Origin: Oceanospirillales bacterium
Lineage (GTDB): Bacteria > Pseudomonadota > Gammaproteobacteria > Pseudomonadales > Balneatricaceae
Length of the DNA: 64,000 bases
Direction: 5' to 3'
Assembly: GCA_018223185.1 (NCBI GenBank)
Contig: JAAEYW010000026.1
Location: 1 to 64,000 of the forward strand
In this document: in pieces, positions 30,656 to 36,001 of the stretch
Layout: every line of letters starts with the position of its first letter
How positions within the stretch are numbered: the stretch's first letter is position 1
Program-made: the position numbers and the translations under genes
Notes under the pieces: model-generated
Databases searched by the model: none
What the model was told of the DNA's origin: nothing
What the model saw: the letters and a program-made list of their open reading frames with translations, nothing else

Positions 30656-30822
30656 TTCCCTCAGCTGCGCACCATCTGTCTAAATCCGCTATACACCGTT
30701 AAGCATTATAAAGAACGGCACATAAACTTTTTTGTACGAACTGTGTTTAAACGCAGCTATTGAACGACATTTTTTATGAGCTTTTACACGAATCAGGCCG
30801 GAACAGGGCGATCAGGCTAATT

Positions 30823-32001
30823 ATGAATATCACCGTTATTTTGTTATCTCTCTGTCAGGCGTTGCTGACAACCGGTAATGTGCTGCTTATTTCAGTCAAT
30901 GCGCTGATCGGCCAGCAGCTGGCGCCATCGCCGGGGTTGATTACACTTCCGGTGGCGATGCAGTTTGTCGGTCTGATGTGTGCGACGATTCCGGCCTCGC
31001 TGGTGATGTCCCGAATCGGCCGGAAAAACGGCTTTTATCTGGGTAACAGCGTTGGTATTGCTGGCGCCCTGTGTTGTATTTTTGCTCTGCAACAGGGCTC
31101 TTTTATACTGTTTTGTTGCGGCACCTTTTTGTTGGGAATTGGTATAGGTTTCGGTACGCTGTATCGTTTTGCGGCGATTGAAGCCTGCCCTGATGAGCAG
31201 AAAAGCAAAGCTATCTCGCTGGTAATGGCGGGCGGTGTGCTGGCTGCTGTCATGGGGCCCAACCTGGCTGTCAGTAGCCGTAGCTGGGTCGATGACGGCG
31301 TTTTTACCGGGGCTTTTATCGGCTTGTTATTCCTCTATACCATCGCATTGATACTGCTCTCTTTTGTTCGTATGCCAGGACACAGCGGTTCGCAACAGCT
31401 GCAGCAGAGTAGTCGGCCGGTCCTTGAGATAATGCAGCAGCCGGTATTTATTGTTGCCGCAACCATCGGCATGGTCAGCTATGCAGTGATGAATCTGATT
31501 ATGACGGTTACGCCAGTGGCCATGACGCGCTGCGGCTTCGACTTTAATACATCTGCCTGGGTTATCGAGTGGCATGTGCTGGGCATGTTTTTACCTTCAT
31601 TTATCACCCCCCGGTTAATCAGCCGGTTGGGGCTGTTGCCGGTGATGTTGCTTGGCGCTGTACTGATGCTACTCTGTATCGCGTTGAACCTGCATGGTGT
31701 TAGTCAGTGGCATTTCTGGGCGGCGTTAGCGTTGCTGGGGGTCGGCTGGAACTTTATGTTTATCGGTGCCACTCAGTTGGTAACCTCGGCATACCTGCCT
31801 GCAGAAAAAGCAAAAAGTCAGGCGGCAAACGAGTTTTTGATTTTTGGCATGGTCACTGTTTCTGCGTTCAGCTCGGGCTGGCTGGAGGCAACCCTTGGCT
31901 GGCAGATGCTTAATACGCTGATGATTCCGGTACTGGTTTGGGTGATGCTGGTCGTTTATGTCTACCGTAAGCCGGTTAGCCGCCATCTGGCGACAGTATA
32001 A
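30823..32001 (+). CDS. Major facilitator superfamily transporter
   Basis: Inner-membrane secondary transporter with about 12 hydrophobic helices in two halves. The loop 2-3 motif reads SRIGRKNGFYLGN, a variant of the MFS GxxxDRxGRR signature, and in the second half SRLGLLPVMLLGAVLM is the counterpart. The long central loop SGSQQLQQSSRPVLEIMQQP separates the halves. No substrate can be assigned; the overall look (YbjJ-type, short loops) fits an efflux or sugar/drug porter. ATG 30823 has ATCAGG upstream, while the frame extends back to a TTG at 30760 without a binding site. Monocistronic. Confidence 0.85.
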   Translation: MNITVILLSLCQALLTTGNVLLISVNALIGQQLAPSPGLITLPVAMQFVGLMCATIPASLVMSRIGRKNGFYLGNSVGIAGALCCIFALQQGSFILFCCGTFLLGIGIGFGTLYRFAAIEACPDEQKSKAISLVMAGGVLAAVMGPNLAVSSRSWVDDGVFTGAFIGLLFLYTIALILLSFVRMPGHSGSQQLQQSSRPVLEIMQQPVFIVAATIGMVSYAVMNLIMTVTPVAMTRCGFDFNTSAWVIEWHVLGMFLPSFITPRLISRLGLLPVMLLGAVLMLLCIALNLHGVSQWHFWAALALLGVGWNFMFIGATQLVTSAYLPAEKAKSQAANEFLIFGMVTVSAFSSGWLEATLGWQMLNTLMIPVLVWVMLVVYVYRKPVSRHLATV

Positions 32002-32023
32002 GCTCAGGGGCCCGAAGTCTATT

Positions 32024-32060
32024 GTAAAAAAAGGGCCACAGACGCTTGCCTGTGGCCCAA
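32024..32060 (-). terminator. Orphan minus-strand Rho-independent terminator
   Basis: Read on the minus strand, GGGCCACAG-GCAAGCGT-CTGTGGCCC is a perfect 9-base stem followed by seven T. On the plus strand there is no T run after the hairpin. No minus-strand gene lies upstream of it, which points to an untranslated transcript. Confidence 0.85.
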
Positions 32061-32230
32061 TGTGTTGATGAATATATGTTGATGAAATTGCATTACCTTA
32101 CAGGGGAATCCCCACTGATGAAACGCTCAACTTTCCAATAGTCTACAACAACAACTATCCTTAACTTGCTTCACAGATCGATTGAATAATCTGTTTATTT
32201 GCTTTCTAAATGTGTGCTTCAGTAGCAGGG
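32026..32230 (-). ncRNA. Candidate small RNA, about 205 nt
   Basis: On the minus strand TTGACG (32265-32260) and AATACT (32242-32237) are 17 bases apart, a plausible sigma-70 promoter, and a perfect terminator lies about 205 bases downstream. The predicted RNA has no ORF of note. It can form several hairpins: ACAGAT...ATCTGT, ATAGT...ACTAT and GGGG-ATT-CCCC. An unpaired segment contains TTCATCAACA twice, which could serve as a repeated target-pairing site. GGA occurs about three times, twice beside or within hairpins, as in CsrA/RsmA-binding RNAs. No known sRNA family is recognised. Confidence 0.45.
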
Positions 32231-32314
32231 AATTTCAGTATTGGCCGGGATCTTAAATCCGTCAAGAAAATTTCTGGTTATTCTTTTCGGATCTGTTCCA
32301 GGGGCTTGTGTCAG

Positions 32315-32334
32315 ATTGCAAAGTGTAGTGCAAT
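32315..32334. promoter_or_regulatory. Dyad ATTGCA-N8-TGCAAT
   Basis: A perfect 6-base inverted repeat with an 8-base spacer. It lies about 30 bases upstream of the plus-strand gene at 32365 and about 50 bases upstream of the predicted -35 of the minus-strand small RNA. The geometry suits a dimeric regulator that could control either transcript. Confidence 0.4.
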
Positions 32335-32364
32335 GCTCCCCATAACTGGTGTTGGAAAAAGTCG

Positions 32365-32631
32365 ATGAAAAGTTACCTCTTTACAACTGAGACTGATCGC
32401 GGTGGTGTCATGCTATGTGAAATTGATGACTTTGATACCGCGGTTGACTATCTTTGTAACCGTTTTGATGGTGTGGTGAAAATCGAATCTGCTGAACAGG
32501 TGTGGCAGCTGTCCGAAGCGGACAAGCCGGCCTCTGTGCCCTCAATCTCTGAATCTCATCCGGACGACCCAGCTGCCGGGGCTGCAGTAGGGCATGTCGA
32601 GCGTGAATCATCTGCTGACCTGTTTGCTTAA
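32365..32631 (+). CDS. Small hypothetical protein
   Basis: 88 residues. A structured-looking first half (KSYLFTTETDRGGVMLCEID, DTAVDYLCNRFDGVVKIES) is followed by an Ala/Ser/Pro-rich acidic tail that looks disordered. No membrane helix, no recognised family. A good binding site (GGAAAAAG) stands before ATG 32365. It lies 80 bases before recC on the same strand. A real gene is likely from the binding site and codon use; no function is proposed. Confidence 0.65.
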   Translation: MKSYLFTTETDRGGVMLCEIDDFDTAVDYLCNRFDGVVKIESAEQVWQLSEADKPASVPSISESHPDDPAAGAAVGHVERESSADLFA

Positions 32632-32713: not shown

Positions 32714-35700
32714 ATGTTTCAGATCTATCATTCCAATAAGCTCGATCTGCAAAAAGATCTGTTGGTAAGGCTGATCAGCCGGCACCCACTGAGCGACCCC
32801 TTTCAACCTGAAACGATTCTGGTGCAAAGCCCCGGTATGGCGCAGTGGCTCAAACTGGAACTGGCCGAAACGCTGGAGATTGCGGCAAATATTGACTTTC
32901 CTTTACCTGCCAGTTTCCTCTGGAGCAGTTTTACCGCAGTGCTTGATGATGTTCCGGATCGTTCCGCTTTTAATAAAGAGGCATTGACCTGGGGGTTGAT
33001 GGAGTTGCTGCCTCTGCAGCTTAGCCGGACTGAGTTTGCCCCCCTGCAGCGCTATCTTGAAGAGGATGAAGGCCAGTACAAGCTGTATCAGCTATGCGGT
33101 AAGGTTGCGGATATTTTTGACCAGTATCTGGTATACCGTCCGGAGTGGATCGCCAGTTGGGAAAGTGGCGATGATCTGCCGGATATCACCTCTTCTCAGC
33201 CCTGGCAGCCGATTCTCTGGCGTACACTGCAACAGCATATTCTCGGGCTGGGTTTATCTCACTGGCACCGGGGGAATATGTTTAACGGTTTTGTTACGGC
33301 CCTGAATGCCGGTCAGTTTGATCTTACTTTGCTTCCAGCACGGCTGTTTGTCTTTGGTATCTCTGCGCTGCCGCAAAACTTTGTTGAAGCTTTACAAGCA
33401 CTGGGTCGGCGGATTGATGTTCACCTGATGGTGTGTAATCCCTGCAAATACTATTGGGGTGATATTGTCGATCCAAAATATCTCGCCAGGATTAATCAGC
33501 GCTGGTTATCCAAGCCCGGTATGAGTGTTGAAACGCTGACAGATAGTTATCATAGTCACGGTAATCCGCTACTCGCATCAATGGGAAAGCTTGGCCGGGA
33601 TTACCTGCATCAGATACAGGACCTTGCAGCCCCGGAGATTGAGCTGTTTGAGGATTGTGATCGTGCATCACTGTTGCAGTCGGTTCAGCAGGATATTCTC
33701 GAACTAGATGATCCTTCATCTGAAAGGGTGCTTGACCCTGAACAGAAGAGGGTGCTGCCGGCAGAAGACCGTTCATTGCAGCTGCATAGTGCTCACAGCC
33801 CGTTGCGGGAGGTTGAGATACTCTATGACCAATTGCTGTCGATGCTGGATGAACATGCGGATCTGTCTCCCCGGGACATTATTATAATGATGCCCGATGT
33901 GGCAGCCTATGCGCCGTATATTGAAGCGGTCTTTGGCAATGCGCCTTTTGATCGTTATATTCCGTTTTCAATTTCAGACCGGACGTTACAGCAGGAGAGC
34001 CCGCTACTACAAAGTTTTCTGCGCCTGCTGGGGCTGCCAGAAAGCCGGGTGACCGTGTCGGAGGTTCTGGAAATCCTTGAAGTGCCTGCGGTGTTGCGTC
34101 AGTTCAGTCTGGACAGTGACCGGTTTGAGCGTATCTGCCGCTGGATTGAAGCCTGTCAGATCCGCTGGGGAATCGATGCCGATCAGCGCGTTCGTCAGGG
34201 CTTGCCCCCGTTTGAGCAGAACAGCTGGCGCTTTGGTTTACGCCGGATGCTGGCCGGGTTTGCCATGGGACAGAGTGATTCTTTGTGGCATGGTATAGAT
34301 CCCTACGCTGAAATTGAGGGGCTCGAAGCCGAGGACCTGGGTCAGCTGGCAGAGTTTGTTGAACTGCTGGAGTTCTGTTGTGAAAGGTTGCAGCAGGAAA
34401 AACCGGTGTCCGGGTGGTTTGAGGTGATCAACGATATTCTGCAGCGGGCATATCAGCCTGACGAACAGGACGAGATTCTGCTCAGTCAGATTCGTCAGGT
34501 GCTGGAAAAGTTGCAGCAACAACTCAGCGATAGTCATTATCAGCAACCGCTCAGCTGGGCCATTATGCGTGATTATCTTATCGCTGAGTTGGGCAACAGT
34601 CGTGCTGGCCAGCGTTTTATGGTCGGCGCAGTTAACTTCTGTACCCTGATGCCGATGCGTTCGATTCCTTTTCGGGTGGTCTGTTTACTGGGGATGAATG
34701 ACGGTGTTTACCCCCGTGCCATACCGCCGATGGGGTTTGACCTGATGGCTGAGCATCCCCGTCGCGGGGATCGATCCCGGCGGGATGATGACCGCTATCT
34801 GTTTCTCGAAGCCGTTCTCTCAGCCAGGCAGACGCTGTATGTCAGTTATGTTGGTCGCAGTGTCCAGGACAACAGCCCTAAAGTACCTTCGGTGCTGGTA
34901 AGCGAACTGATGGAATATTGTCAGCAGAATTACCGCCTGGATAACGACTCTGATAATGGAACGCTGATACAGCAACTGCTGACTGAACACCCGCTACAGC
35001 CTTTTAGCGAGCGCTACTTCAGCCCTGATTCTTCTCTTTTCAGTTATGCTGAGGAGTGGTTGCCACTGCTGCGCCAGCAGGGCAATACAGAGCAGAGCTT
35101 TATGACCCGGCCGTTAGAAACTGAGCCTCTGGAGGATCTGGAGCTGACAGATCTGCTTGCGTTCGCCCGCAACCCGGTAAAACACTTTTTCCAGCGACGA
35201 CTGAAAGTTTTTTTTAACCGCTCTGCGATTGAGCTGCTGGATGAAGAACCGTTCCAGCCAGACGGCCTGACCCTCTATCAGTTGAAACAGCAGCTGCTGG
35301 ATGCCGCTATTAATGAGCAACAGGATCAGTGCTTTGAGCGGATTGTGGCTTCAGGGCGATTGCCGGTGGGTATTGCCGCTGAGTTACAAACCCGAAAGCT
35401 GCGCCGTGATTGTCAGGAAATGGCCGATAAGATCCGTCCCCATCTTGATCGCCCGGAACGTATCGAGTGTCAGCTGGTTATCGCGGGAACACCGCTGAAT
35501 GGCTGGCTTACCGGGGTTCACTCGGGCGCGCTGGTGCGTTATCGGGCAGCCAATGCGAAGGGGCGGGATATGGTTCAGTTATGGCTGGAGCACCTGGTGC
35601 TGTCTGCCAGTGGTTACCGGTTGCAATCATATTTTTTCGGACTCAATGGCCGCCACTGGTTTGATCCGCTTGAGAAGGAGCGGGCACTGGACTATTTGCA

Positions 35701-36001
35701 GGAGTGGCTGAACGCCTATCGGCAGGGGCTCTGTGAACCGTTGCCGCTTCCTGCGGATACCGCCTGGGTACTGGAGTCGAAAACGCTGGAAAAAGACCAG
35801 GAGAGGGCTGTGATGGAAGCACAGAAGTGCTTTAACATCGACTCTTATACTCAGTTGGGGGAGTCCCGCGATCTCTATATTAACCGGGTTTATCCCGATT
35901 ACAGTTCGCTTGGACCACGTTTTGTGGCTTTGTCAGAGTTGCTTTACCAGCCTTTAGCCCTGGCGTTACAGCAGGGTGACGGGGAGGTGGATGATGAGTA
36001 A
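32714..36001 (+). CDS. recC: RecBCD subunit gamma, RecC
   Basis: Subunit of exodeoxyribonuclease V that splits the DNA strands and scans for Chi. 1095 residues. The N-terminal start FQIYHSNKLDLQKDLLVRLI and SPGMAQWLKLELAE match RecC. Helicase-like but degenerate domains follow, with DIIIMMPDVAAYAPYIEAVF and CLLGMNDGVYPRAIPPMGFDLM, and a C-terminal degenerate nuclease-like domain. It overlaps the start of recB by a few codons, so the operon order is recC-recB-recD with no ptrA between, unlike E. coli. Confidence 0.96.
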   Translation: MFQIYHSNKLDLQKDLLVRLISRHPLSDPFQPETILVQSPGMAQWLKLELAETLEIAANIDFPLPASFLWSSFTAVLDDVPDRSAFNKEALTWGLMELLPLQLSRTEFAPLQRYLEEDEGQYKLYQLCGKVADIFDQYLVYRPEWIASWESGDDLPDITSSQPWQPILWRTLQQHILGLGLSHWHRGNMFNGFVTALNAGQFDLTLLPARLFVFGISALPQNFVEALQALGRRIDVHLMVCNPCKYYWGDIVDPKYLARINQRWLSKPGMSVETLTDSYHSHGNPLLASMGKLGRDYLHQIQDLAAPEIELFEDCDRASLLQSVQQDILELDDPSSERVLDPEQKRVLPAEDRSLQLHSAHSPLREVEILYDQLLSMLDEHADLSPRDIIIMMPDVAAYAPYIEAVFGNAPFDRYIPFSISDRTLQQESPLLQSFLRLLGLPESRVTVSEVLEILEVPAVLRQFSLDSDRFERICRWIEACQIRWGIDADQRVRQGLPPFEQNSWRFGLRRMLAGFAMGQSDSLWHGIDPYAEIEGLEAEDLGQLAEFVELLEFCCERLQQEKPVSGWFEVINDILQRAYQPDEQDEILLSQIRQVLEKLQQQLSDSHYQQPLSWAIMRDYLIAELGNSRAGQRFMVGAVNFCTLMPMRSIPFRVVCLLGMNDGVYPRAIPPMGFDLMAEHPRRGDRSRRDDDRYLFLEAVLSARQTLYVSYVGRSVQDNSPKVPSVLVSELMEYCQQNYRLDNDSDNGTLIQQLLTEHPLQPFSERYFSPDSSLFSYAEEWLPLLRQQGNTEQSFMTRPLETEPLEDLELTDLLAFARNPVKHFFQRRLKVFFNRSAIELLDEEPFQPDGLTLYQLKQQLLDAAINEQQDQCFERIVASGRLPVGIAAELQTRKLRRDCQEMADKIRPHLDRPERIECQLVIAGTPLNGWLTGVHSGALVRYRAANAKGRDMVQLWLEHLVLSASGYRLQSYFFGLNGRHWFDPLEKERALDYLQEWLNAYRQGLCEPLPLPADTAWVLESKTLEKDQERAVMEAQKCFNIDSYTQLGESRDLYINRVYPDYSSLGPRFVALSELLYQPLALALQQGDGEVDDE

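Follow-up and report, generated by a model that had tools for sequence, protein, structure and literature searches.

A predicted genus-specific, trans-acting small RNA upstream of recC in Amphritea

What is transcribed towards an intrinsic terminator that has no gene behind it? The window, by which we mean the whole 64,000-nucleotide stretch of DNA analysed here, comes from a bacterium whose genus, we infer, is Amphritea. Its interval 32002–32364 is flanked by an MFS transporter gene (30760–32001) and an 88-amino-acid open reading frame (ORF; 32365–32631), after which comes recC (32714–36001), all on the plus strand. A first-pass annotation of this DNA noted a minus-strand terminator in the interval with no minus-strand gene behind it, which is correct, both flanking genes being on the plus strand, and proposed an unannotated small RNA (sRNA) acting in trans or binding CsrA/RsmA. 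Judged from sequence and conservation, the minus-strand interval very probably holds a real sRNA gene (Table 1), and we consider it probable that its product is a trans-acting sRNA specific to Amphritea that would pair with its targets through a conserved motif.

Table 1. Features of the predicted sRNA locus, in window coordinates.
Feature	Position	Strand	Remarks
sRNA gene, about 205 nt	32026..32231	minus	start ±3 nt, predicted from the promoter
sRNA promoter, TTGACG-17-AATACT	32237..32265	minus	spacing of 17 conserved in 13/13 homologues
Putative seed, copy adjoining the terminator, TTCATCAACA	32063..32072	minus	TCATCAA invariant in 13/13 homologues
Putative seed, second copy, TTCATCAACA	32077..32086	minus	TCATCAA(C/T)A doubled in 5/13 homologues
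Intrinsic terminator	32026..32058	minus	11-bp stem 32058–32033, T7 32032–32026
ATTGCA-N8-TGCAAT dyad	32315..32334	none	judged to lie outside the sRNA gene

A DNA search with the interval gave matches in 10 of the 17 genomes of the genus. Nine of these are the sRNA (G000, G003, G001, G014, G009, G007, G011, G012 and G004, the window's own copy included), with the elements in the same order; the tenth, in G002, spans 35 bp and covers only the start of the 88-amino-acid ORF and its leader. A covariance model of the sRNA 3′ end built from the nine sequences (R2) recovered all of them together with copies in G005, G006, G015 and G016 at E values of 2e-4 to 6e-4, and these four further copies have the same neighbourhood and the same promoter. 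In total, a homologue in the same neighbourhood, with its terminator kept, was found in 13 of the 17 genomes. For 16 genomes we also read the stretch that precedes recC, and we read the G004 match. In G002, G008 and G013 the neighbouring genes are present with a gap of just 144–196 bases between them, and R2 gave nothing at E 0.5 or better, so the sRNA is dispensable in the genus; G010 was matched by none of the queries (interval, recC and R2). The three genomes that keep the neighbours but have no copy offer a natural experiment.

Conservation is concentrated at the two ends of the gene. In the alignment of the first nine homologues, to which these counts are confined, the invariant positions of the window copy number 35 among the 47 at its start (promoter and 5′ end) and 23 among the 46 at its end (seed and terminator), compared with 5 of the 152 in between. 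TCATCAA is a short stretch conserved beyond its surroundings, being present in all 13 homologues; the doubled form TCATCAA(C/T)A occurs in G000, G003, G001, G014 and G009, and both copies of the repeated motif described for the window are there. The body varies freely, and the predicted RNA ranges from 153 to 307 nt across the 13 homologues.

The terminator had been described as perfect, with a 9-base stem and seven T; it is present, and its stem actually comprises 11 pairs (8 G-C) closed by a loop of 4. Under a strict definition applied to both strands (at least 8 perfect pairs counting G-T, at least 6 G-C and at least 6 T), the 64 kb contain 2 terminators, and 100 dinucleotide-shuffled versions of the window contain 0. 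One is that of the sRNA; the other strict terminator, at about 13172 on the minus strand, has a 12-bp stem and a loop of 3. Among the first nine sequences, two-sided changes occur at 3 of the 11 stem pairs of the sRNA terminator, and 5 of the 11 are interrupted by a mismatch or a gap in one or two of the nine; some terminator is present in all 13 homologues. The proposed promoter is also there, and CTTGACG, the 17-base spacing and CCAATACT are invariant in all 13. Matches to the promoter consensus by themselves are not above chance (6 found, compared with 4.6 ± 2.2 in shuffles of 5 kb), so the promoter is credible because it is conserved. The spacer of G005, G006, G015 and G016 shares with the rest an AT and a G between the common flanks. 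An inverted repeat in the G001 promoter spacer, GGATTC-N-GAATCC, was considered as a repressor site and rejected because the spacer is not kept in these four genomes.

Outside the terminator, the RNA shows little sign of further conserved hairpins. The terminator is the only structure in the consensus fold, and it accounts for the folding excess of the whole window RNA (z −2.6 relative to shuffles), the part upstream of the last seed copy giving z −0.1. Across the 13 homologues, the corresponding z scores are −1.5 to −6.0 for the whole RNA and −0.1 to −2.4 for the 5′ body, all of the latter negative and one beyond −2, and some weak structure in the body is possible on these folding predictions. 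The three or more hairpins reported in the first-pass annotation are indeed predicted in the window RNA, but the extra ones are little or no more stable than those of shuffled sequences and are absent from the consensus fold. The seed itself is predicted to be partly paired in several species (mean unpaired probability 0.12–0.96).

The locus thus has its own promoter and an intrinsic terminator within an intergenic region, recognizable by sequence and by conservation, and the retention of promoter, 3′ motif and terminator in one neighbourhood bears out the proposal of an unannotated trans-acting sRNA. Base-pairing sRNAs are built in this way, with an unvarying motif immediately preceding a terminator and its long T-run. 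The combination of a fixed promoter, 3′ motif and terminator with a free body therefore points to a trans-acting, Hfq-type base-pairing sRNA, and pairing with targets through the conserved motif seems likely from the pattern of conservation. RNA polymerase, probably with the housekeeping sigma factor, would start at about 32230 on the minus strand and stop at the terminator at 32026. The resulting transcript of about 205 nt would consist of a 5′ body that is free to change and an unvarying 3′ end, made up of UUCAUCAACA, then the terminator and a long U tail. An RNA chaperone, most likely Hfq, would hold the U tail, and the motif would pair with UGUUGAUGA(A/G) around the translation starts of its target mRNAs and so block ribosome loading.

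The position of the gene also suggests another role, in which it would act mainly in cis, as an antisense to convergent read-through or as a mere transcription end between convergent genes. The end of the MFS gene is 24 bases away from the T-run, and between its stop codon and the sRNA promoter the plus strand has no listed terminator-like site. The convergent neighbour nevertheless differs in G005, G006, G015 and G016, where no MFS orthologue was found in the 4-kb stretches and the sRNA faces the orthologue of the window's 124-amino-acid ORF, the sRNA ending 27–35 bases from the end of the match to that ORF; yet promoter, seed and terminator persist there. In the window's group, two more genes stand between the 124-amino-acid ORF and the sRNA. 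The other side varies too: a chemotaxis-receptor gene (MCPsignal and HAMP) separates the sRNA from the 88-amino-acid ORF in G005 and G004, only parts of such a gene were matched there in G006, G015 and G016, and none was matched in the window's group. The varying neighbours tie the sRNA to the region and not to any single neighbour, and since the invariant TCATCAA is not needed for a role in cis, we regard this reading as improbable. The 88-amino-acid ORF itself, upstream of recC, is present in 16 of 16 stretches of the genus and has no Pfam or NCBIfam match. A small protein gene, whether dual-function or purely coding, is even less likely: short open frames occur in single species (up to 49 amino acids in G004 and 42 in G012), but the longest in the window RNA has 15, G011 has none of at least 10, the frames of different species groups have no common sequence, and the total RNA length ranges as widely as given above.

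The invariant motif beside the terminator would also fit a site that a protein binds, or one that serves as decoy towards a different sRNA, in place of an mRNA seed, and no target with seed–target coevolution was found. We hold this to be unlikely, pairing being the commoner case; to our knowledge, the motif matches no known protein-binding motif, whether the GGA of CsrA, the ARN repeats of Hfq or the AANAANAA of Crc. As for CsrA/RsmA itself, the three GGA motifs on which the first-pass annotation based its suggestion of binding are present in the window RNA, but their number is what composition predicts (2.7), and they are not conserved. The 13 homologues have 3, 3, 3, 1, 0, 0, 0, 1, 3, 0, 1, 1 and 1 GGA, near or under the 1.3–4.3 expected from composition and none at all in 4 of the 13, with A-N-GGA occurring at most once per RNA. 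The many conserved GGA in hairpin loops that characterize CsrA-titrating RNAs are missing here, and no Rfam match with any CsrB/RsmY-type family was obtained. Because GGA is no commoner than chance and is not conserved, a titrating sRNA of the CsrB/RsmY type is highly implausible.

Upstream of the promoter, the first-pass annotation had also pointed to the dyad listed in Table 1. It is present, but a regulatory role is unsupported, as the complete dyad occurs in 2 of the 16 stretches, those of G000 and G003 only. One half, TGCAATGC, occurs in 12 of 16, including all three of the sRNA-lacking stretches of G002, G008 and G013, and thus belongs to the leader of the divergent 88-amino-acid ORF. 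The dyad was therefore dropped as an operator of the sRNA.

How far does the sRNA extend beyond these genomes? No Rfam 15 family scores above its gathering threshold in the region. At permissive settings, ceN30 reaches 17.1 bits of the 65 needed (E 2.2), and isrD (RF01388), an Hfq-binding RNA, reaches 16.2 of 37 bits (E = 4) at 32082–32028 on the minus strand, a match that falls on the seed and terminator; both scores are at chance level. Elsewhere in the window, an Rfam tRNA match at 1–50 on the plus strand is cut by the window edge, and ARAGORN reports none.

With 111 bases of DNA around the promoter as the query, matches came from 9 of 116 genomes of the family, all Amphritea. On the same 116 genomes, with stricter filters and the scoring of 46 candidates in each, the R2 model reached E 0.5 or better in 26 genomes; 13 of them are the genus members, and the best other match has E 0.012. 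That match (L072, in G083) has TTCATCAACATT before a terminator, around 1500 and 24 bases behind a long reading frame, and no promoter of the sRNA type was seen with it; its sister L084 (in G085, E 0.48) has TTCATCGACATT and a terminator. From its sequence, this element could be a 3′-UTR-derived sRNA with a similar seed in another genus. In 390 sampled genomes of the order, with 12 candidates scored per genome, the R1 model found its own genome and seven matches of 17.1–19.2 bits. The exact promoter pattern, which misses the G005 group by design, occurs among 84,980 species in seven Amphritea records, including A. atlantica DSM 18887, A. balenae and A. pacifica, and in one Bacillus record, with about two chance matches calculated. 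Across the 116 family genomes, the 390 order genomes and the promoter pattern in the 84,980 species, no convincing homologue appeared outside Amphritea.

As a regulator, the sRNA is of a familiar kind, though itself new and absent from Rfam 15, and it adds a well-bounded sRNA family to Amphritea. RyhB, RybB and Spot 42 are Hfq-dependent trans-acting sRNAs of Gammaproteobacteria. Such RNAs likewise have their own promoter, a short conserved motif and a terminator with a long U tail; unlike them, the Amphritea RNA has its motif adjoining the terminator, an unconserved body and no Rfam 15 family. A literature search found no paper containing both 'Amphritea' and 'small RNA'. In another marine gammaproteobacterium, Alcanivorax dieselolei, a published survey gives 538 of 549 sRNAs as having no Rfam relatives, and most of the sRNAs as confined to close relatives (PMC9788540). 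On that account, a genus-limited sRNA is not unusual, with the difference that the Alcanivorax sRNAs were detected by RNA sequencing and the Amphritea sRNA is predicted from its sequence.

Which mRNAs might the seed meet? Duplexes predicted with whole RNAs came out long and meaningless, so the calculation was confined to the seed. We searched the complement of the motif, TGTTGATGAR, in three sRNA-bearing genomes and found 79 sites in G000, 80 in G009 and 64 in G006, compared with 7, 17 and 11 for the reversed pattern. This excess is not evidence of targeting, since we take it to come largely from in-frame Val-Asp-Glu codons. Strict patterns including a Shine–Dalgarno sequence gave 6 and 10 sites in the three genomes, mostly inside reading frames, and the window's two TGTTGATGA sites outside the sRNA (15982 and 20741) are both inside reading frames. 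Site comparison covered all 80 G009 sites (two of them the sRNA itself) and 60 of the 64 in G006; of the remaining four in G006, one is the sRNA itself and three were examined separately, among which L310 falls at or close to the beginning of an open frame. Seven orthologous site pairs emerged between G009 and G006, six inside reading frames and one in the leader of ccoN. Of the G000 sites, 10 of 79 were read; four have an orthologous site in G009 or G006, and none was judged a shared leader site.

The ccoN gene, for the catalytic subunit of cbb3 oxidase, was identified by Pfam COX1 above cut-off; NCBIfam TIGR00780 stays below its cut-off for the whole protein, as the query was limited to 160 residues. 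The site lies at −18 to −9 from the start codon, across the probable Shine–Dalgarno sequence, and the proposed pairing partners are the seed UCAUCAACA and the leader UGUUGAUGA. In all 11 readable sRNA-bearing genomes, the better seed copy is predicted to form 9–13 contiguous pairs with it at −12.1 to −17.5 kcal/mol, energies that refer to the seed alone, with no shuffled control and for a site chosen beforehand for its complementarity. The leader carries TGTTGATGA in all 15 Amphritea genomes read, including the four in which no sRNA was found (G002, G008, G013 and G010). Other genera contributed 91 genomes matching ccoN, of which 15 were read; 9 of these 15 carry it too, and among the six negatives, the start in G039 was probably misplaced. 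Because the leader is equally conserved where no sRNA was found, its conservation is not due to the sRNA, and ccoN remains a candidate.

It is the best candidate, with a fairly low probability of being a true target; the match could be coincidence, or the seed could have come to suit a target that was there before it. More speculatively, Amphritea might have gained an sRNA of its own that masks the ribosome-binding site of ccoN and so lowers cbb3 oxidase, perhaps along with further genes for c-type cytochromes and the envelope; its seed would have been shaped by a leader already fixed in several genera of this family, which would make it a case of an sRNA adapting to an old, immovable target. 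Were ccoN the target, a young sRNA would be tied to which terminal oxidase marine bacteria use. Among the literature consulted, the nearest functional parallel is NrrF of Neisseria meningitidis, an sRNA that represses the respiratory-chain mRNAs sdhCDAB and petABC (PMC5586341). By analogy of function, with no Rfam match on the Amphritea side, both would be intergenic-type sRNAs acting on 5′ leaders of respiratory genes; Fur control belongs to NrrF, and ccoN is only a candidate target. As a separate observation, the ccoN leader TAGCTTGTTGATGAGAGCCTGA or close variants of it (L263–L292) are nearly fixed in the Amphritea genomes read and in genomes of two further genera of the family, genomes without the sRNA among them.

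Other start regions match the seed less consistently. In G009, those of a SoxA/TsdA-type cytochrome (whose TIGR04484 SoxA score, on a fragment, is below cut-off) and of a FlgO-type lipoprotein do so, and neither has an orthologous site among the G006 sites. The porin start region, a second candidate, offers perfect pairing in G005, G006, G012 and G015, 4 of the 14 genes that could be read, and does not do so in the 7 other sRNA-bearing and 3 sRNA-lacking genomes in which the gene start was read. Around ACTACTAGTACGTTAAATATTGAAGGGGAAA (L293–L307), the porin leader is almost invariant in the genus, and most of the porins are only 38–49% identical to the G006 query.
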